Origin: Trichocoleus desertorum NBK24
Lineage (GTDB): Bacteria; Cyanobacteriota; Cyanobacteriia; FACHB-46
DNA length: 64,000 nucleotides
NCBI RefSeq assembly: GCF_030409055.1
Contig: NZ_CP116619.1
Span: 529,628-593,627 of the forward strand
Direction of reading: 5' to 3'
A program made the position numbers and the translations under genes. Shown here in pieces: positions 14,184 to 53,762 of this stretch. The notes below the pieces were generated by a model, which worked only from the letters and a program-made list of their open reading frames with translations, was not told where the DNA came from and did no database searches. The first letter of the stretch is position 1; each line of letters opens with the position of its first letter.

Positions 14184-14612
14184 GTGACGACTGGTGGATT
14201 TGGTAAGGCAGAAACCCCAAAAAAGTCTGTTTCTAAGAAGGCAGTCAAGCGGACTGAAGCTTCGAAGCAGTACGACAAAATGAAGACTGATGGGGTGCCT
14301 GAATTCAATATCTATATGCGAATTCAGGGTAAGAAGCAGTGGTATCCGGTCGGCTCGATCGCGGTGAAGCGTAGCAGCCAAATCAATATGGCAATCTACG
14401 ACAGCGAGAAAGATTTGCGCGAAGGTGCATTCCGCCTGTTCCCCATCCTCCGCAAAAATCAAGCAAATCTAGAATACGGCTATCGCTTGAAGGAATTTAG
14501 CGACGAACCCATCCAAGTTGCCGTGAAGCCTGAGCAAGCAGTTGCCAATGCGTTCCAGTCCGCGATCGCCAACGTCAAAGACCGCTTCACCTCTCTCTTC
14601 AAGCGCAGCTAA
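14184..14612 (+). CDS. HHL1-like protein
   Basis: 142 aa with a GTG start 8 bases after AAGGAG. After a basic low-complexity N-terminus (residues 1-30) comes a compact conserved domain: YDKMKTDGVPEFNIYMRIQGKKQWYPVGSIAVKRSSQINMAIYDSEKDL...FPILRKNQANLEYGYRLKEF. This matches the cyanobacterial homologues of plant HHL1, a thylakoid protein needed for photosystem II function under high light; a similar role here is inferred. There is no membrane segment. It is monocistronic and lies between the two ParA loci. Confidence 0.8.
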   Translation: MTTGGFGKAETPKKSVSKKAVKRTEASKQYDKMKTDGVPEFNIYMRIQGKKQWYPVGSIAVKRSSQINMAIYDSEKDLREGAFRLFPILRKNQANLEYGYRLKEFSDEPIQVAVKPEQAVANAFQSAIANVKDRFTSLFKRS

Positions 14613-14671
14613 TTACATTTCTTCAAACCGAATAGCGTCAACGTTTCGGCGAAATCTAGCAATCATTCCAA

Positions 14672-15094
14672 CTAGATTTCGTCAAACATAGTTTTGACTT
14701 GATCGTAAGGATCTTGAGATGGACTAGCAATAGCAGCCTTTGTTTTTTTGTTAGTTGTAGACTTGGTACGGGCCGTAGAAGATTTTTTGGCAGGCTTTGC
14801 CTTACTTTTCTCTTCTAGAGCAGGAAGAACACTGGCATTAACTCCATCAACACCAGGAGCCTTATCAGCAGTAGGAACTAATGTTTCTGACTTTGATGCA
14901 GTGATGGATGGCAGAAATCCTGCATCTTGATTAAGCATTTTCTGTCTTACTAGTTGGTAATAGGCTTGAAAAGCTGCTGACTCTAGAGAATTTAAACCGT
15001 CAAGGTCAAGATGGCTAAGTTTCTCAAGGGATTCATGAATACTAACCAAAGCTTGCATGGCTTCCAGAGGCGTAGTCACAGTTGAATTACTCAT
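14672..15094 (-). CDS. Small lysine-rich protein, putative ParA partner
   Basis: 140 aa, not recognised. Residues 1-65 look helical (LEAMQALVSIHESLEKLSHL), 85-120 are a basic Lys/Ser/Thr/Ala linker, and the end is acidic-hydrophobic (DPYDQVKTMFDEI). It begins 3 bases after the stop of the ParA paralogue, so it is co-transcribed with it. Many ParA-type ATPases are followed by a small adaptor that stimulates ATP hydrolysis and links it to its cargo; the position and the basic linker fit such a role, by inference. It has no HTH, no ParB box and no tryptophan (McdB proteins usually keep one near the end). AT-rich and HIP1-free like its two upstream neighbours. Confidence 0.75.
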   Translation of the reverse strand: MSNSTVTTPLEAMQALVSIHESLEKLSHLDLDGLNSLESAAFQAYYQLVRQKMLNQDAGFLPSITASKSETLVPTADKAPGVDGVNASVLPALEEKSKAKPAKKSSTARTKSTTNKKTKAAIASPSQDPYDQVKTMFDEI

Positions 15095-15097
15095 ATG

Positions 15098-16030
15098 CTA
15101 GTCAAGATCAGCTAGTGTTGATTCAGATTGAGGTTTAGCAATACCAGTAGAGATTGCTATTTTCTGCAAAAATTCTTTTGTAAGGATACTAAATGCCTTA
15201 GCTCCTGATGAGTTTGGAGTAAGCAATACAACAGGCTGAAACCTATCTCCTGCTCTAGAAATATCGACATTCATGGGAATTTCGGTTCTAAATATATTTT
15301 CTGAGCCGAAATCGTTAGTTACTCGTTGAATAACTTGTTGATAGAATTTTCCTGCTGGTCCACCTGACATTGTAAAAACTATTCCCAAAAGATGTAGTTT
15401 CGATAAAATCTCAGGGTGCTCTTTTCTGAATCTTTTAATCCTTCGCTCTAGTAGTTGAATCCCAATCACGGACAATGGTTCCGGCTTTGCAGGAAGCAGA
15501 TAGAAGTTACTTGCAGCAATGCTACTACGAGTTAGGAGATGATAGCCAGGAGCACAATCCAAGAAAATGAAATCATATTCCTCAAGAACAGGACTTAGAA
15601 TTTTACTCACTAATCTATGTTCAAAGATATTCCACATCTTCTCAAAACTATTTTGATATTCACGAACTGATTGATAATGAAGCTTTTCAGAAATCTCGAA
15701 GTCGTTATACAACTCTAAATCACCAGGCAGTAGATCTAATCCATTCACTGCACACACATTATTCCTGATTACATCTCTAATCGAAAAATCATAACTTTTG
15801 TCTGATTTAATTTCTTTTTCTATTAAATTTCTTAGTGTTCTATCTGCCTTTCGAAGGTCAGTAAAATCTGGAGGAGAAATTAGACTTAAAGTTGCATTAA
15901 TTTGAGCATCTAAATCAACCACTAAAACCCGTTTATCAAAATCTCTTGCCAAGCAAGTAGCGAGATTTACTGTGAGAGTAGTTTTACCAACACCTCCCTT
16001 CATGTTGATAGTTGAAATTATGTAACCCAT
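15098..16030 (-). CDS. ParA/MinD-type ATPase (second paralogue)
   Basis: 310 aa with the same architecture as the ParA at 12925-13863: Walker A NMKGGVGKTT at 9-18 with signature Lys 11, A' VDLDAQ, Walker B DFIFLDCAPGYHLLTR, and the shared LLPAKPEPLSVIGIQLLERR segment. About half the residues look identical between the two. It is the middle gene of a three-gene unit (nuclease-like, ParA, small protein; gaps of 18 and 3 bases). Its DNA is visibly more AT-rich than the first paralogue. Likely role: positioning a cargo via the downstream small protein. The cargo is unknown. Confidence 0.92.
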   Translation of the reverse strand: MGYIISTINMKGGVGKTTLTVNLATCLARDFDKRVLVVDLDAQINATLSLISPPDFTDLRKADRTLRNLIEKEIKSDKSYDFSIRDVIRNNVCAVNGLDLLPGDLELYNDFEISEKLHYQSVREYQNSFEKMWNIFEHRLVSKILSPVLEEYDFIFLDCAPGYHLLTRSSIAASNFYLLPAKPEPLSVIGIQLLERRIKRFRKEHPEILSKLHLLGIVFTMSGGPAGKFYQQVIQRVTNDFGSENIFRTEIPMNVDISRAGDRFQPVVLLTPNSSGAKAFSILTKEFLQKIAISTGIAKPQSESTLADLD

Positions 16031-16048
16031 GATTTTAATTTAATCCTG

Positions 16049-16828
16049 CTATAGGTTTTGCATTGCTTCACAGAGGCTATTGAGGTAGTTTAGTGCTTGG
16101 CTCATGTTTGCATCTCTGACAATGACAACTGATATGTCATGATGCAAGCATTCAAGAACTTGAATGTTCGCTGACTCAAAGCATTTACTAACTATCCTTA
16201 GATGCGTAGAAGGTGAGGGCTGAAAAGCTGTTGTCAGCTTACATTTTTCTCCATACGGCTGAATACGAACCAATAGGAGAGCGCCCCATAGTACATCGAT
16301 ATGCTCTTGTTTGTTGTCAAAATTCAGTTCGTAGCAGAGTCTTTTTTGGTCTATCTCCTGAAATATTCTGTAGGCTTGATTTTTTAAAGGCTGTATCTCT
16401 GGCGTATATGAACTAGGTGAACTTAAAATCTTGAGATTTTTAGTAATCATATCTAGCTTGAATACCCAAAGTTCCAGTTGTGATTGATTGAGTGCTTGAA
16501 TTAGATGAGATTGAGGATTGGTGAGGTCTGCGCATATTAAGGCTCCGGCATGAGCATGACCACCCATAACATAAGACACTAGCCGACAAATATGATCGGC
16601 ATCAGCATTACCTAACTGATTTTCAATAGCGACAATAGTGCCACTTTTTGTTTGACACCACAAATCAGCCCTTCCATAAGGCAAACACTTCTCCTGGCTA
16701 ACAAGTTTCAGACCAGGATAGTATGGTTCGAAAATGTTTAAATTCTGAACCAGCCAGCTTGTTAATTCGCTCTCTGTTCTAAAGTAACTACTGGCTGTAC
16801 CTACAGGAAAAAAATAATCTTCAATCAA
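16049..16828 (-). CDS. PD-(D/E)XK nuclease-like protein of unknown function
   Basis: 259 aa. Residues 21-85 carry the fold signature of the PD-(D/E)XK superfamily: a helix (ELTSWLVQNLNIF), then YGRADLW with Asp 55, then TIVAIENQLGNADADHICRLVSYVMG with Glu 69 and Gln 71. The third active-site position is Gln (ExQ) instead of the common Lys, a variant seen in some restriction-like families. The C-terminal half (~140-259) is unassigned. The start is uncertain: TTG 16828 is the furthest plausible codon and no strong ribosome site is visible. First gene of the unit with ParA and the small protein. It may act on DNA; being inactive is also possible. Confidence 0.65.
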   Translation of the reverse strand: MIEDYFFPVGTASSYFRTESELTSWLVQNLNIFEPYYPGLKLVSQEKCLPYGRADLWCQTKSGTIVAIENQLGNADADHICRLVSYVMGGHAHAGALICADLTNPQSHLIQALNQSQLELWVFKLDMITKNLKILSSPSSYTPEIQPLKNQAYRIFQEIDQKRLCYELNFDNKQEHIDVLWGALLLVRIQPYGEKCKLTTAFQPSPSTHLRIVSKCFESANIQVLECLHHDISVVIVRDANMSQALNYLNSLCEAMQNL

Positions 16829-17082
16829 AGAGAATGACCTGATATGAGGTAGTGAAAGTTACGTTAAAAATTTACTTCTCTAGTGAGCATTACCAATTAT
16901 TATCTTCACTTCAACAGGCTAAGTACAGTTTGCAAAATTCTTTAACCATTTTTACGTTGTTTAATCAGAACTTAAGTCATTACGTTTAGCCATGCGTTAC
17001 GGCTACGCCTAACACACGCTACGAGTTTGTTTGGGTTGAGTGGGCGATCGCTCTAACCCCCCAATTTTGTCGTCCCTCAAAT
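16829..17082. other. Intergenic region with an interspersed cyanobacterial repeat
   Basis: AT-rich DNA to about 16985 continues the composition of the nuclease-ParA unit. At 16990-17021 lies ATGCGTTACGGCTACGCC followed by TAACACACGCTACG, a familiar cyanobacterial interspersed repeat motif. HIP1 reappears at 17044, which may mark the edge of an acquired segment. Confidence 0.5.
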
Positions 17083-47774: not shown

Positions 47775-48237
47775 CACTTCACCAATTTTGAACTTGGCTA
47801 TTGTCGATCACCTTACACTTTTGCGGCAGCAGTTTGGTGAGATTTTGATTCCAGATGTTGTGCTCGATGAATTGAAGATTCATGAGAAACGGCCTGGTTC
47901 TCAGACTATTCGGAAGGCAATTTCAATCGGATGGATTCAAACTCGAAGTGTAAGTAATCAAGCCCTTGTAAAACTACTAAGGCAGACTTTAGACAAAGGA
48001 GAAGCCGAGGCGATCGCCCTTTCAGTTGAATTGCAGGTAGACTGGTTACTGTTGGATGAACGTGAAGGTAGGAAAGTTGCTAAATCTTTGGGTTTGAAAG
48101 TGACAGGTATTTTGGGAGTTCTGCTACGCGCCAAACAAATAGGTGAACTTGAGTCTTTGCAGCCTGTAGTTGATGATCTGATTAACAAAGCTGGATTCCG
48201 GATAGCACCAGAACTATTGGCGCAAATTCTCACCTAG
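47758..48237 (+). CDS. DUF3368 PIN-like toxin
   Basis: 159 aa. PIN-fold ribonuclease-like protein. VVSNTSPILNLAIVDHLTLL, the acidic DKGEAEAIALSVEL, and LLLDEREGRKVAKSLGLKVTGILGVLLRAKQIG are diagnostic. The first strand has Asn (SNTSP) where PIN enzymes have Asp; this is usual in DUF3368. Translationally coupled to its UPF0175 partner. Likely an mRNA or tRNA nuclease. Confidence 0.85.
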   Translation: MPVVSNTSPILNLAIVDHLTLLRQQFGEILIPDVVLDELKIHEKRPGSQTIRKAISIGWIQTRSVSNQALVKLLRQTLDKGEAEAIALSVELQVDWLLLDEREGRKVAKSLGLKVTGILGVLLRAKQIGELESLQPVVDDLINKAGFRIAPELLAQILT

Positions 48238-48323
48238 CAGGAACAATAAATAGCTCTTGAGTGTTTGAGTTAATGCGTAGTTTTTTGGACACTTAACTGA
48301 ACTACTTCTCGCCCCAAAGCTCT

Positions 48324-48585
48324 CTATTCCTCTTCTACTATTAGCGCATCATCAAGAGCTTGGAGAAAGTTCTCGATAGTTTCACTATCTTCAGCAGGTT
48401 GTTCAGATATTTGAGCCTTCTCGAAATAGATCAAAGTTGTTTCTTCTACAGAATCACTTTCAATGCTGCGGTAATAACCAACTAATCCCGTTGTAGCACT
48501 AATTGAAGCTAGCCATTCTCCTACATCATCCCAGGCGTTGAACAACTCATCTTCATGACTAACCTTGTGAATAGCTAATGTTAGA
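48324..48585 (-). pseudogene. 3' part of a gene broken by the nested insertion
   Basis: Encodes the C-terminal ~85 residues (LTLAIHKVSHEDELFNAWDDVGEWLAS...) of an unrecognised protein. Bases 48578-48585 (ATGTTAGA, plus strand) are the 8-bp target-site duplication. Joining 48577 to 52268 with one copy of the duplication, and removing one of two 38-base tandem copies in the 5' part, restores a single frame of 177 codons including the stop, 52582 to 48324. The residual ORF to 48629 reads partly into the element. Confidence 0.85.
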
Positions 48586-48650
48586 GAGTGCATCCCAGTT
48601 TTGTAAGGCTTATTTTGAGAATTGCCCATTCAGGTAAGCACAGCGCTGCA

Positions 48651-49079
48651 TCAGCACCTGTGGCACATTCCCTTTTCCCACTGTGCCCCCGATATCTTGA
48701 TGCGTCGCCCGACTTGTTTGACCGTCGATTCAATCGCACCAGAACCAATGGAGATGCCTTCAGCTTGATAATAGCCATAGTTGACGATGCGCGGTCGATG
48801 CTTGTTGAGATAGCCAATGAACGGAATCACTCGCTCGGGTTGCCAATCCTCAAACAGGGCAATCGCTCCCTCGACATCGCCTTGCCACAAACAGGCTTCC
48901 ACGGCAGCTAAGCGTTGCTTAGAACCACCCACCTTGCCCAAATTCTCGATGAGGTGATACCAATCCAAAATCTCCCGTCTTTGGGGCGTGGAGCCAATCT
49001 GGGCATAAATATTCCAGATCCCCTCATGCCCATCTCCGAGGCAAGTTAACGGGTAGACAAAGGCTGAGCGTTGACCCAA
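48651..49079 (-). pseudogene. C-terminal fragment of ISKra4 transposase (element A)
   Basis: Homologous to the C-terminal third of the element B transposase: LTCLGDGHEGIWNIYAQIG, REILDWYHLIENLGKVGG, and GSGAIESTVKQVGRRIKISGAQW. Element C interrupts just upstream; a single-base loss near 49050 shifts NAQPLST away from LTCLGDGH; another near 48672 truncates the end to GMCHRC instead of the expected NVPQVL...RCAYLNGQF. Non-functional remnant. Confidence 0.85.
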
Positions 49080-49083
49080 TTGA

Positions 49084-50433
49084 CTAAGGCAGCTTGTAAA
49101 AATAAGTTGAGCTTTTTCCTGACTTCATGACCTACCTCAACAGAGCAACTAAGCTTGAACTGTAGGGTTATTATGAGCAGCATGATCGCAGCGGATGTTG
49201 TTGAACAAATTCGCTTCAAGTACGAGGCATTTGCTCCTTATTTGAATGAGCAAACACGACGCATCTGGGCAGCAATTGAAGCACGAAGTTTGGGGCATGG
49301 TGGTGTGAGTGCACTATCAAAGGCAACAGGACTGAGCCGCAATACGATTACATCGGGACAAAGAACTCTAGAAGCGACTGAGGAAACGATTGTCACAGGT
49401 TCGATTCGTAAACCAGGAGGAGGACGTAAGCGAGTCGAAGAGCGCGATGAGACATTAATCAAGCGTCTCGATGACCTGGTTGAACCGACGACTCGAGGAG
49501 ACCCGACTTCGGCACTGCGATGGACCTGTAAAAGTGTGAACAAATTAGCACAGGAACTTCAAAGACAGGGACATCAAGTCAGCGCTAAGACCGTTTATAC
49601 CCTGCTCAAGTCAATGGACTACAGCTTGCAAAGCAATCGCAAAACTCGCGAAGGCAAAGATCATCCCGACCGTGATGCCCAGTTTGAGCACATCGCAACC
49701 ACGGTTGAGCAGTTTCAACAGTTGCATCGCCCTGTGATTTCAATCGATACCAAGAACAAGGAACTGGTGGGCAATTTCCATCATCCTGGGCGAGAGTGGG
49801 AACCAAAGGGAGAGCCTGTGGAGGTCAATGTCCATGACTTTGCTGACAAGACATTGGGCAAAGCAATTCCCTATGGCATCTATGACTTGGCTTTGAACCA
49901 GGGTTGGGTGAGCGTCGGCATTGACCATGACACGGCTGAATTTGCCGTTGAGTCCATTCGTCACTGGTGGTTAGACATGGGGCAACTGCTTTATCCGCGT
50001 AGTAAGCATTTATTAATCACGGCAGACTGTGGGGGCAGCAATGGCTACCGCAATCGCTTGTGGAAGTTGAAACTCCAAGAGTTCGCTGATGAGATGGGTT
50101 TAACGGTTCACCTGTGCCATTTCCCACCAGGTACGAGCAAATGGAACAAGATTGAGCATCGACTGTTCTGCCATATCACGCAAAACTGGCGAGGTAGACC
50201 TTTAACGAGTTTGCAAGTCATCATCAACCTGATTGGAAGCACTACGACAGAGCAAGGCTTAGAAGTTCATGCTCAACTCGATGAAAAGCGATACAAAACG
50301 GGCATTAAAGTAACGGATGAAGAGTTTAACGCGATTGCGATTCGGCGCAAACGGTTTCATGGAGATTGGAACTATCAAATCAGCCCCAGAAAAGCTGCTT
50401 AATTGCTCAACTTATTTTTACACGCTTCCTAAG
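49084..50433 (+). mobile_element. ISAzo13-type insertion sequence C with target duplication
   Basis: The element proper is 49089-50428 (1340 bases). Inverted repeats of 24 bases with 2 mismatches lie at 49089-49112 and 50405-50428 and share TGTAAAAATAAGTTGAGC. CTAAG is duplicated at 49084-49088 and 50429-50433. Removing it restores the element A frame as CGC TTA GTC AAT TGG (RLVNW). Confidence 0.88.
49173..50402 (+). CDS. ISAzo13-family transposase
   Basis: About 409 aa from ATG 49173 (MSSMIAADVVEQIRFKYEAFAPYLNEQTRRIWAAIEA), which follows TAGGG; a TTG six codons upstream is possible. The N-terminal HTH (GGVSALSKATGLSRNTITSG) precedes a DDE-type catalytic domain: PVISIDTKNKELVGNFHHPG, LLITADCGGSNGYRNRLWK, HFPPGTSKWNKIEHRLFCHI. 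The open frame and intact ends suggest a recently active copy. It is read opposite to elements A and B. Confidence 0.9.
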   Translation: MSSMIAADVVEQIRFKYEAFAPYLNEQTRRIWAAIEARSLGHGGVSALSKATGLSRNTITSGQRTLEATEETIVTGSIRKPGGGRKRVEERDETLIKRLDDLVEPTTRGDPTSALRWTCKSVNKLAQELQRQGHQVSAKTVYTLLKSMDYSLQSNRKTREGKDHPDRDAQFEHIATTVEQFQQLHRPVISIDTKNKELVGNFHHPGREWEPKGEPVEVNVHDFADKTLGKAIPYGIYDLALNQGWVSVGIDHDTAEFAVESIRHWWLDMGQLLYPRSKHLLITADCGGSNGYRNRLWKLKLQEFADEMGLTVHLCHFPPGTSKWNKIEHRLFCHITQNWRGRPLTSLQVIINLIGSTTTEQGLEVHAQLDEKRYKTGIKVTDEEFNAIAIRRKRFHGDWNYQISPRKAA

Positions 50434-50487
50434 CGCTCGTTGTGCTGGAAGAACGCAGCAACACAAAACTCGTGCAGATTCACCCCC

Positions 50488-51652
50488 TTGTAATCGGGAG
50501 CATGTCAGTTTTGCAAACCGATTAGACCATTGAGATAAGCGCAACGATGAGCTAGCACTTGTGGAACATTCTCACGCTTCCACTGCGCGCCTGATATTTG
50601 AACGCGACGGTCAATCTGCTTGATAGTCGATTCAACCGCACCCGAACCCACCGAACACAGCCCTTCCGCTTGGAAGTAGTCGTAATTCACAATGCGGTGG
50701 CGATGTTTGCGCAGATACTCACAGAAGTTCTTTGCCTGTTTTTTCTGAACGTCTTCAAACAAGAGAATGGTTGCATCCACTTTCCCCCGCCATAGTAGCG
50801 CTTCGGCTTGATGGAGACGCTTGAGCGAACCGCCGACCTTGTAGAGATTCTCTTTGAGATGATACCAATCGAGGATCTCCCGACGACACTCTGCGGTGGC
50901 GATTTGAGCAATCAGATTCCAAACTCCATCATGGCCATCGCCTAAACAGGTCAAGGGATGCTCTAAAGCTTGAGCATTAACCCAGCCAATCAGTTGAGCA
51001 TTGTTTTGAAAGTTGGCAACCCTACCTTGTTCAGTGGCAATGGCTTTGTAGTCTCGCCATTGACAGGCCTCCCCCAACGGCGTTCGCACCCGCACCTTGC
51101 CCCCATCCACACCGAGTTCTGCAATGGGCTGCTGGGCCGTTGGCAACTCAAAGCTCTGATGATGCACCAAGCGTTGTTGAGTTTTAGCTGGAATGCGAAT
51201 CCCGGTGAGATAAGCTACATCACGCTCTGCCTGCTCATAGGAGACATTGGCACTTAAGCGCAGACAGCATTTCTCTAAATGGGGACTCAACTGTCGGGAG
51301 GGAGCAACTGCCAGTTTCTCTGCTTGGCCCGTGGTGAGTTCTAGCTCTCCCAGTGTACTTTTTAGCCTTCGCACTCTTCCTGCTTGCGTACCGCTAACCG
51401 CTCGGATAAAAAACACCCTAATTCGGGACTGACATGGGCTTGAATCTGCTCTCGCAGAGTCAACTCAATACCTTCGAGTGTTTTCATCGCTTCCGGGTCA
51501 CTTTCGGCGTACAGAATTTGAGCAATCGCTTCGAGATGAACTTGGAGGGCTTGGGCTTGAGCAGGAGTCATGTCAGGGGTTGCAGCAATGAGTTGCCTCT
51601 ATCCTGACTGATTTCACCGAACCTTGCAAAGGTGACCTGCTCCCTTGTAATC
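50488..51652 (-). mobile_element. ISKra4-type insertion sequence B with target duplication
   Basis: The element proper is 50496-51644 (1149 bases). 21-base inverted repeats with 3 mismatches (GGGAGCATGTCAGTTTTGC at 50496; the other end complements it at 51624-51644). TTGTAATC is duplicated at 50488-50495 and 51645-51652. It is inserted in the transposase of the related element A; removing it restores WRDYKGVNLHEFCVAAFFQ. Both transposase frames are open, so it may be active. Confidence 0.88.
50505..51571 (-). CDS. ISKra4-family transposase made by -1 frameshift (element B)
   Basis: Two frames: 51571 down to 51362 (MTPAQAQALQVHLEAIAQILYAESDPEAMKTLEG...ELGCFL) and 51416 down to 50505 (FFIRAVSG...RCAYLNGLIGLQN). 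Codon 53 ends in the first T of T TTT TTA (51413-51407) in the zero frame, a canonical slippery heptamer; a -1 slip fuses them to about 355 aa, the usual length. The catalytic part contains ELGVDGGKVRVRTP, LTCLGDGHDGVWN, REILDWYHLKENLYKVGG and GSGAVESTIKQIDRR. The same heptamer occurs in element A. Confidence 0.85.
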
Positions 51653-52170
51653 TCGCCATTCACTCGGTTGTCCTGGAGGGGTTCGCAATCGCACTTTGCC
51701 GCCATCGACACTCATCTCCTCAACCGTTCCTTCCACTTGGGGCAACTCGAAGGTTTGACGATGCACTAAGCGTTGTTGAGTGCTGTGAGAAACCTTGATC
51801 CCAGGCAACACTTCGATATCTTCTGCTGCTCGCTCATACGACTCGTTGGCACTCACCCACAAACAGCACTGCTCCAGGTAAGGACTCCAGCGTGTGTAGG
51901 CTTTCACATCCAGAAGTTGAGCTTGTTTCTCACTCACCCGCAGTCGTCCGAGGATACTGTCGAGGGTGCGCTTTCGTCCACTCGTGGTAGCGCTGCTTGT
52001 TGCGATAAAAAATTCCCGATTTCTGGGCTGACATGCTCAAGCAGATGTCCTCGCACTGCCACCTCAATCCCTGCCAACGTCTTCACTTGCTCCGGGTCGC
52101 TTTCCTCATACAGCAGAGCAGCAAGGGCACGGGCGTGGGCTTGGATTTGGGCTTTCTTCTCAGTGTCCAT
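51614..52170 (-). pseudogene. N-terminal part of ISKra4 transposase (element A)
   Basis: First frame from ATG 52170 (MDTEKKAQIQAHARALAALLYEESDPEQVKTLAG...EIGNFL), then, after a -1 shift at T TTT TTA (about 52011-52005), VSEKQAQLLDVKAYTRWSPYLEQCCLWVSANESYERAAEDIE...WRDYKG. Element B truncates the frame here; the following AGHLCKVR belongs to B's end. The rest of the gene continues at 50487-50434 and 49083-48609. Confidence 0.85.
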
Positions 52171-52267
52171 TGGGGTGGTCGGGTCAAGGTTTTACCCTCA
52201 AAGTTTAGCGTTGTCTTCCCAACACACTTCTAAGCACTAATACTCATCGCAAAAGCGGGATGCACTC

Positions 52268-52582
52268 ATGTTAGATTACGAAATGATGTTCCAAAACTTC
52301 CTGGTAAATACTCCTCAAATTCGGAGTGTCCTCCTCGCCTGGTAAATACTCCTCAAATTCGGAGTGTCCTCCTCGAAAGAAGGTGTTCCAGGCTGGCAGT
52401 ACACGCATTGTAATACTTGAGGGATGAACGATACTTCTGGACTGCGAAAGCTCAGGATTATTGAGTGATGGGATAAAGTCGCTACCTGTGTTTCCCATCA
52501 GGAAATAAAGCGTATCAATGGTTTCCTGTGAAACATTGGGTTTGATACTGAACAACAGAGCCAACTCGTAAAAATCGCTCAT
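52268..52582 (-). pseudogene. 5' part of a gene broken by the nested insertion
   Basis: Starts at ATG 52582 (MSDFYELALLFSIKPNVSQETIDTLYFLMGN). After NTFFRGGHSEFEEYLPG the frame is broken by a 38-base tandem duplication (52300-52337 and 52338-52375; 38 is not a multiple of 3). With one copy removed it reads GHSEFEEYLPGSFGTSFRNLTLAIHKVSH and continues into the 3' part at 48324-48577. The restored protein is 176 aa, soluble and acidic, of unknown function. Confidence 0.85.
52300..52375. repeat. 38-base perfect tandem duplication
   Basis: Two exact adjacent copies starting CCTGGTAAATACTCCTC, 52300-52337 and 52338-52375. It causes a frameshift in the disrupted gene; removing one copy restores the frame across the IS insertion site. 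Confidence 0.9.
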
Positions 52583-52766
52583 TTTGGCTTCTCTTGAATA
52601 TCTGTAATAGTGGAGTAATGTCCACAAGATACCCGATACAGGATCAACTTTTTAGAAATCAAATATGTAGATAGTAGAACCGCTTATTCTCTACTGACTG
52701 TAATGTTTTCCTACCTTAGGGACGGAAAACAATAAAAATTAACCTGCCCAAATGTCTAGGTTATTC

Positions 52767-53762
52767 CTATTGATTTGTAGACTTGCTAGCGGATTGGCCT
52801 TGTTTCTTTTTAGCTTCTTGCAAGGCAGCTTCACTAAAGCGTTGGTAGACGGCAGTGCGATCTTGAGCGATGCTGTAGCGCTTGTCTTGAGTAGTTACTT
52901 GGCCCATTAGATCTGAGGCTTGCTGCCATTTTGCGGCTAGAGCTAGCCAATCGGCTGAAGATTGGGCTGCTTTGCCATCACTAGCGGTTTGTTCAGCGAG
53001 TCTGACTGCATCTGCGAAGGGATCGGCAGAGGTTGGGGCAGTAGTAGGAGCGATCGCAGCAGTTTGAGGGCTGGGGCTAGGACTCGCTGAGGCAACTGGA
53101 GAAGGGCTAGGCGCGATCGCGGCAGTAGAGCTGGGAGAAGCAGGTGCAGCCGTAATAGGCTCAGGAGATTCGGCAGAATTAGGAGAGGTTACGGTATTCG
53201 ATTGGCTGTTTGCTTGCAATCTAGGCCCAAACCAACTGTAACCGCCCCAAGCCAGCAACAGCAAAAGTAAACTGGCCGCAGTGCCACCCACCACACCACG
53301 CTTGAATTGGCGTTGCTCCCGGACTTGACGCGGAGATGGAGTCTTTGGCATACCAGACGCTTGTTCTGCTTGCTGGCTCTGCAAATCCTCCATGAACTGT
53401 TTGAACAGGTTAGGCCGAGTTAAGGTGATCTCTTGCGACCAAAGCAATTGATTTTCTGGGTCGCGATTAATTTCCTCTAGCCATAACAATTGTTGCTCAC
53501 GCACAATGCGGCTGTTGATTTTGACGCGGCGAATATTGCGGGGTGAAATCGCCTCCAAAATCTGACGCACCCGCTCCACTAAGGTAGATTGCTCCAGTTG
53601 ATCCACATCGGGGGCTTCGCACAAAAGCTGTAGCACGCCATCCTCAAAAATGGCTCTGGTTCTCACGCCAGAATCCGCCAGCTTGTCATTCAAAACTTGA
53701 ATAATAGCTGCCACGCTGCCTTGGCGGGCTTGCTTGGTAATATTTTCAATCGAATCTACCAT
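52767..53762 (-). CDS. Membrane protein with Pro/Ser-rich linker, unknown function
   Basis: 331 aa, not recognised by name but of a type found in cyanobacteria. A conserved-looking N-terminal domain (1-~125: ITKQARQGSVAAIIQVLNDKLADSGVRTRAIFEDGVLQLLCEAPDVDQLEQSTLVERVRQIL) is followed by a single membrane segment (~160-178, GGTAASLLLLLLAWGGYSWFG), a long Ala/Pro/Ser linker (~185-250), and a helical end (LALAAKWQQASDLMGQVTTQDKRYSIAQDRTAVYQRFSEAALQEAKKK). No catalytic motif is seen. Confidence 0.8.
   Translation of the reverse strand: MVDSIENITKQARQGSVAAIIQVLNDKLADSGVRTRAIFEDGVLQLLCEAPDVDQLEQSTLVERVRQILEAISPRNIRRVKINSRIVREQQLLWLEEINRDPENQLLWSQEITLTRPNLFKQFMEDLQSQQAEQASGMPKTPSPRQVREQRQFKRGVVGGTAASLLLLLLAWGGYSWFGPRLQANSQSNTVTSPNSAESPEPITAAPASPSSTAAIAPSPSPVASASPSPSPQTAAIAPTTAPTSADPFADAVRLAEQTASDGKAAQSSADWLALAAKWQQASDLMGQVTTQDKRYSIAQDRTAVYQRFSEAALQEAKKKQGQSASKSTNQ

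Follow-up and report, generated by a model that had tools for sequence, protein, structure and literature searches.

A nuclease-like gene, a ParA gene and a small putative partner gene form a candidate exchangeable cassette beside a core ParA gene in Trichocoleus desertorum

We compared a window of 64,000 nucleotides from Trichocoleus desertorum NBK24 (the whole stretch of DNA analysed; genome G000) with the corresponding loci L137 and L138 of two congeneric genomes, G001 and G002. This comparison shows that the site between hhl1 and a glycosyltransferase gene, beside a core cyanobacterial ParA gene (ParA2), is a hotspot that holds three alternative cassettes with predicted nucleases in these three sister species. 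The occupant in the window is a unit of three genes, nuc, ParA and small (below, the trio). The best reading of the trio is an exchangeable anti-foreign-DNA or DNA-maintenance module beside the core ParA, acting by a mechanism that we infer. More specifically, we tentatively favour an exchangeable cassette that would work as a ParA-organised nuclease module.

ATPases of the ParA family are known to position DNA as well as protein cargos. PD-(D/E)XK nucleases are repeatedly coupled to ParA, by fusion in many cyanobacterial genomes and as cassettes swapped at one chromosomal site, and this coupling suggests that ParA may serve to recognise or clear foreign DNA. The window contains a compact version of the coupling, and its site offers a natural comparison of three sister species. 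All domain families in the trio are known except that of small. In the open-access papers searched we found no description of a ParA-nuclease module, of the small family, of the split nuclease-ParA-small arrangement or of the ParA2-linked hotspot.

The insertion site

The preliminary description of this DNA reported three tightly packed genes on one strand and a second ParA gene nearby. Their coordinates (Table 1), the common minus strand and the gaps of 18 nt (nuc-ParA) and 3 nt (ParA-small) are all correct.

Table 1. Features of the hotspot and its flanks in the window
Feature	Start	End	Strand	Description
ParA2, core cyanobacterial ParA	12925	13863	-	Lies next to the hotspot; both congeners have it at 98-99% identity
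HHL1-like protein	14184	14612	+	Left border of the hotspot, conserved at 96-99% identity in congeners
Lineage-specific AT-rich insert with the trio	14618	16974		blastn against congener loci L137/L138; GC
Inverted repeat	14645	14686		15-nt arms, 87% complementary, 12-nt loop; overlaps the stop codon of small
small	14672	15094	-	140 aa; putative ParA partner
ParA (trio)	15098	16030	-	310 aa; ParA-family Walker ATPase
nuc	16049	16828	-	259 aa; TTG start; first gene of the unit
Family 2 glycosyltransferase	17083	18153	-	Right border of the hotspot, conserved at ~95% identity in congeners

The flanking genes have the same order, ileS, glyoxalase, ParA2, hhl1, glycosyltransferase, in G001 and G002. 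By blastn, the DNA shared with the congeners ends on the left at 14617 in G001, 5 nt past the hhl1 stop codon, and at 14612 in G002, at the stop codon itself. It resumes on the right at 16975 in G001 and at 17060 in G002. The flanks are 91/90% identical to the window in G001 and 87/88% in G002 at the DNA level. Neither nuc nor small has a homologue in the two congeners, where the core ParA is the only ParA of this family. As the insert is missing from both congeners and other genes stand in its place, the earlier proposal of horizontal acquisition is supported, and the event was probably recent. No integrase gene was evident within the three inserts. At the right insert edge (window positions 16975-17035), the window and G001 have in common a sequence like GCGTTACGGCTACGCCTAACACACGCTACG. 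It was not seen at the corresponding edge in G002 and resembles a dispersed repeat.

The inverted repeat at the end of small forms a strong hairpin (z -3.1) between convergent genes. No array of parS-like repeats was found, and the core of this one repeat occurs only once in the genome. Thus, rather than a dispersed parS, it is more probably a bidirectional terminator.

In G001 the site is occupied by a gene encoding a 490-aa fusion of an HSDR_N-type PD-(D/E)XK domain with ParA (nuclease::ParA), followed by a gene encoding a 293-aa ParB_N-like protein (L137:3987-6286). In an alignment of 14 fusions of this type the positions D46, E70-x-K72 and the Walker A residues are invariant, which indicates that both predicted active sites are kept. 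Further fusions followed by a ParB_N-like gene were observed at L029:2481-4633 and L024:3492-5633. In G002 the site contains genes for three proteins: one of 290 aa, an AAA ATPase of 671 aa and a DnaQ-like exonuclease/PDDEXK/FtsK protein of 866 aa (L138:1844-7433). The FtsK part of the latter matches SspH in PADLOC (4e-65), and its exonuclease part matches BrxHI (3e-8). Homologues of this three-gene module (L062, L055, L058, L026) repeatedly adjoin core ParA genes. Such differing cassettes suggest a swappable system against foreign DNA.

Composition of the insert

The AT-richness of the unit was described correctly. The GC content of the insert is 37.7% over 2357 bp, as compared to 48.9% (sd 2.8) in the window, and lies below that of all other non-overlapping stretches of this length, of which the lowest has 43.9%. 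GC3 is 0.25-0.35 in the three trio genes and 0.49-0.64 in the neighbouring genes tested. This shift in composition is strong. The G001 insert is similar, with 37% GC and no HIP1 between flanks of ~51% GC.

The preliminary description also stressed the absence of HIP1 (GCGATCGC). The gap is real and extends from 14569 to 17044; however, it is not remarkable. At a density of 101 sites per 64 kb, or one per 636 bp, about two gaps of this length are expected by chance in the window, and the longest HIP1-free stretch (5.0 kb, 48010-53050) is twice that of the trio. Thus the absence of HIP1 is weak evidence by itself, and we rejected it as the main evidence for transfer.

The nuclease-like protein

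In nuc, a PD-(D/E)XK domain at residues ~11-142 is followed by a C-terminal part of ~115 residues. The residues from which a nuclease had been predicted, D55 and E69-N-Q71, are present, and D55 and I68-E69-N70-Q71 are invariant in the family alignment (11 members). In both family alignments all of these positions are invariant, together with W25-L26 and H79. The motif of the family is ExQ, not ExK. In an AlphaFold2 model built with 14 sequences, residues 11-140 have block-mean pLDDT of at least 88, whereas the confidence at residues 145-240 is too low to read the fold. The top Foldseek matches of the model are NucS/EndoMS structures (E 3.4e-6 and 1.2e-5), and VIA-align gives Z scores of 13.4 (110 residues superimposed at 4.0 A) and 13.3 (102 residues at 2.0 A) with them. 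The next-ranked structures are restriction endonucleases and SfsA. The model thus supports the PD-(D/E)XK nuclease fold that had been predicted for the 259-aa protein, with NucS/EndoMS as the closest match, and nuc may cleave DNA.

The similarity is to the C-terminal domain of NucS/EndoMS, with Z ~13 and 24-26% identity over ~100-110 residues. However, nuc has no NucS N-terminal domain, and the catalytic Lys is replaced by Gln (ENQ). At the profile level, the match to Pfam NucS_C is sub-threshold (19.6 bits, cut-off 24), and at 25.9 bits NCBIfam NucS stays below its cut-off of 216, with only positions 126-225 matched.

The PADLOC profile PDC-S11 matches nuc at 4e-14 (hmmscan) and covers residues 16-125 only. 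The PDC families of PADLOC are candidate defence families. Proteins of the PDC-S11/DUF4268-associated family share with nuc the N-terminal pattern D...IENQL...H and the WL pair, at ~23% identity. However, nuc is ~50 aa shorter, adjoins a ParA gene and has no C-terminal DUF4268 domain detectable by Pfam, whereas the relative L090 has this domain at 9e-36. As the profile match is partial and the DUF4268 domain is missing, nuc is classified from its sequence as a divergent relative of this IENQ family and not as a full member. Relatives of nuc, of ~305-390 aa, were found in 19 other genomes among the 388 cyanobacterial genomes sampled in our survey.

ParA and its putative partner

The trio ParA contains all the Walker motifs, the deviant Walker A KGGVGKTT at position 11, Walker A' DLDAQ at 39 and Walker B DCAP at 158, and matches Pfam AAA_31 at 1.5e-33. 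It is 54-55% identical to the core ParA2 family. Two trees, one of the 125-member family and a careful one of 41 rows, contain three clades: core ParA2, tandem ParA, and a clade formed by the window ParA and the ParA of genome G022 only. The latter has support of 97/93. Both its branches are long, and the partner gene common to the two loci provides independent support. The trio ParA thus falls in the same family as ParA2, a chromosomal cyanobacterial one, but in a separate clade. Its origin by local tandem duplication of ParA2 was rejected, as the tree groups it with the G022 ParA outside the core clade. Tandem ParA pairs occur at L005:4839-6936, L007, L011, L012, L018, L022, L029, L033 and L069, and their extra copies form a separate clade with support 100/100.

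A homologue of small was found in only one other genome of the 388, G022 (E 3.6e-7). It has 164 aa, is 42% identical to small and is encoded 54 nt behind the sister ParA, in a locus between ubiD and a PEP-CTERM gene. The two proteins share the N-terminal domain and a C-terminal YxxVKTMF. The idea of a ParA with a dedicated small partner is therefore borne out by a second, homologous pair, and small probably represents a new family of ParA partners. Contrary to the preliminary description, small is not basic: its net charge is 0, and only a linker at 101-120 is Lys-rich. A single-sequence model, whose overall confidence is low (61), has helices at 9-26, 31-57 and 129-139 and a disordered middle. 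The predicted architecture is a helical hairpin at 9-57, a disordered Lys/Ser/Thr-rich linker and a C-terminal helix with the conserved Y(D/E)xVKTMF. Searches of Pfam and NCBIfam gave nothing beyond one chance-level match, and nothing significant was found among solved structures. With hhalign, small shows no detectable relationship to the ParB-like partners of the fusions (probability 0.4%), and such homology was rejected.

The canonical ParA motifs and the adjacent downstream gene resemble ParABS. One possibility, which we consider quite unlikely, is that the insert is a remnant plasmid partition system, with ParA and small as a ParA/ParB-type pair, captured together with a passenger nuclease. 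The partners of ParA ATPases are typically encoded immediately downstream of parA (PMC8262871), exactly where small is found, and the AT-rich insert looks foreign. However, the trio ParA reaches no more than 28-33% identity in its best plasmid matches, and the 23 records listed include no cyanobacterial one; its own family is chromosomal and cyanobacterial. No homologue of small was found on the plasmids searched, and small contains no ParB_N, HTH or CTPase domain by Pfam and NCBIfam. The insert is a chromosomal accessory island without ParB or replication genes; no repeated parS-like sites were found, its inverted repeat being unique in the genome. For want of a close plasmid ParA and of a homologue of small on the plasmids searched, a plasmid origin was rejected. 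A viral origin was rejected as well, as no homologue of small was found in the viral contigs searched and the ParA matches there have at most 36% identity.

Positioning of carboxysomes or another protein cargo, in the manner of McdAB, is very improbable. A ParA-type ATPase with the signature lysine, followed by a small, partly disordered partner, is indeed reminiscent of beta-McdAB type 2. The core feature of McdB is an invariant C-terminal Trp, and in beta type 2 also a Gln-rich centre (PMC8262871). However, small and its G022 homologue contain no tryptophan at all and have no Gln-rich centre, and thus small was rejected as an McdB. Moreover, the trio genes are accessory, not core, and are missing from both congeners, although carboxysomes are general in cyanobacteria.

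No homologue of nuc was found in the G022 genome, and there is no nuclease of the nuc type in the 18 kb around the G022 pair. By sequence comparison, ParA and small form a conserved pair (n=2), and nuc does not always accompany it. The preliminary description expected the three genes to recur together and named rare co-occurrence as a refutation. However, the exact triplet occurs in one of the 388 genomes, that of the window, so by this measure the trio as a conserved unit is refuted in its exact form. The combination was also described as unfamiliar, and indeed the exact trio is in no other sampled genome, but a nuclease, a ParA and a partner recur together in other forms, including fusions.

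The main rival explanation is that ParA and small are a self-contained positioning or partition pair, serving an element, a protein complex or the island, and that nuc is an independent defence-type gene sharing the insert and the transcript. We consider this possible, though somewhat doubtful. It agrees with the solitary pair in G022 and with the observation that relatives of the PDC-S11 type seem to stand alone elsewhere, none of the viral-contig members examined being adjoined by a ParA. On the other hand, the trio is a tight directional unit with uniformly low GC and GC3, and nucleases have also become linked to ParA independently, through fusions present in many cyanobacteria and, in G001, at this very site.

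Linkage of nuclease modules to ParA2

Across cyanobacteria the core ParA2 keeps its place next to ileS, hhl1 or both, and no partner gene is evident. The earlier remark that the nearby ParA stands without these partners holds for small, no such partner being found for the core clade within the 125-gene set. However, the neighbourhood of ParA2 repeatedly hosts nuclease modules, which are statistically linked to it. At E <= 1e-30 the L029 fusion has matches in 108 of the 388 genomes, and some of the matching genes are ParA-only, without the nuclease domain. Fusion-type modules lie within 11 kb of a core-family ParA in 16 of the 58 genomes that have both (0.26 expected); in the other 42 they are more distant from ParA2 or on a different contig. 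The FtsK/nuclease modules of the G002 type lie within 11 kb in 13 of 25 genomes (0.11 expected). These expectations assume independence among genomes, and close relatives are found among the linked ones, so the figures serve as a guide only; the linked genomes span the family labels f1, f16, f24, f27, f32, f38 and f41. Among the 80 nearest ParA loci, 25 have one or both nuclease modules in the flanks examined.

In two genomes (G106:C87:24279-28360 and G128:C1:5780667-5784418) a fragment of an FtsK/nuclease gene separates the core ParA from a nuclease::ParA fusion. It suggests that one module replaced another at the site, such leftovers being expected if modules replace one another.

Possible function

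Our preferred reading, a ParA-organised nuclease module, may operate as follows. ParA would bind ATP, dimerise and bind the nucleoid non-specifically. The product of small, encoded just downstream, would be its ATPase-activating partner, with the helical N-terminal domain and the C-terminal YxxVKTMF helix touching ParA and cargo via the flexible basic linker. The effector would be nuc, cutting DNA that ParA and its partner have marked or spatially sorted as non-chromosomal, such as an invading plasmid or phage. We infer that nuc may act in a common complex with ParA and small and that foreign DNA may be the target. Some contact of the trio with ParA2 is also conceivable.

Several observations back this reading: one site with three occupants in three congeners and matching flanks; the likeness of nuc to PDC-S11 and, structurally, to NucS/EndoMS; and the conserved ParA-small pair together with the linkage of both fusion and FtsK/nuclease modules to ParA2. 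On the other hand, the exact trio was found once and the G022 pair has no nuclease, and thus nuc may be only a passenger.

The cassette could also be addictive, with nuc a DNA-damaging toxin held in check by ParA or small, as in toxin-antitoxin systems. The compactness of this mobile nuclease cassette and its lack of a dedicated recombinase would fit. However, no antitoxin family was detected by Pfam or NCBIfam, ParA is not known to act as an antitoxin, and small accompanies ParA without nuc in G022. We give this explanation very little credence. A broader possibility is that the core ParA marks a locus recruiting interchangeable nuclease modules, with nucleoid ParA gradients telling the chromosome from foreign DNA; the modules would then constitute a cyanobacterial family of ParA-guided nucleases. 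This generalisation is unlikely as it stands.

Under the preferred reading, the trio would be the three-gene counterpart of the G001 nuclease::ParA fusion and its ParB-like partner at the same site. Both have the order PD-(D/E)XK, ParA, downstream partner, and the fusions, too, are often near ParA2. However, the fusion is one protein, its nuclease is of an ExK and not an ExQ family, and its ParA belongs to a different family. As small has no detectable relation to the ParB-like partners and the nucleases are only remotely similar (10%), the parallel is architectural only. The window genome has a fusion and a ParB-like gene of its own elsewhere (L003:446-2502, on C1 near 5.34 Mb).
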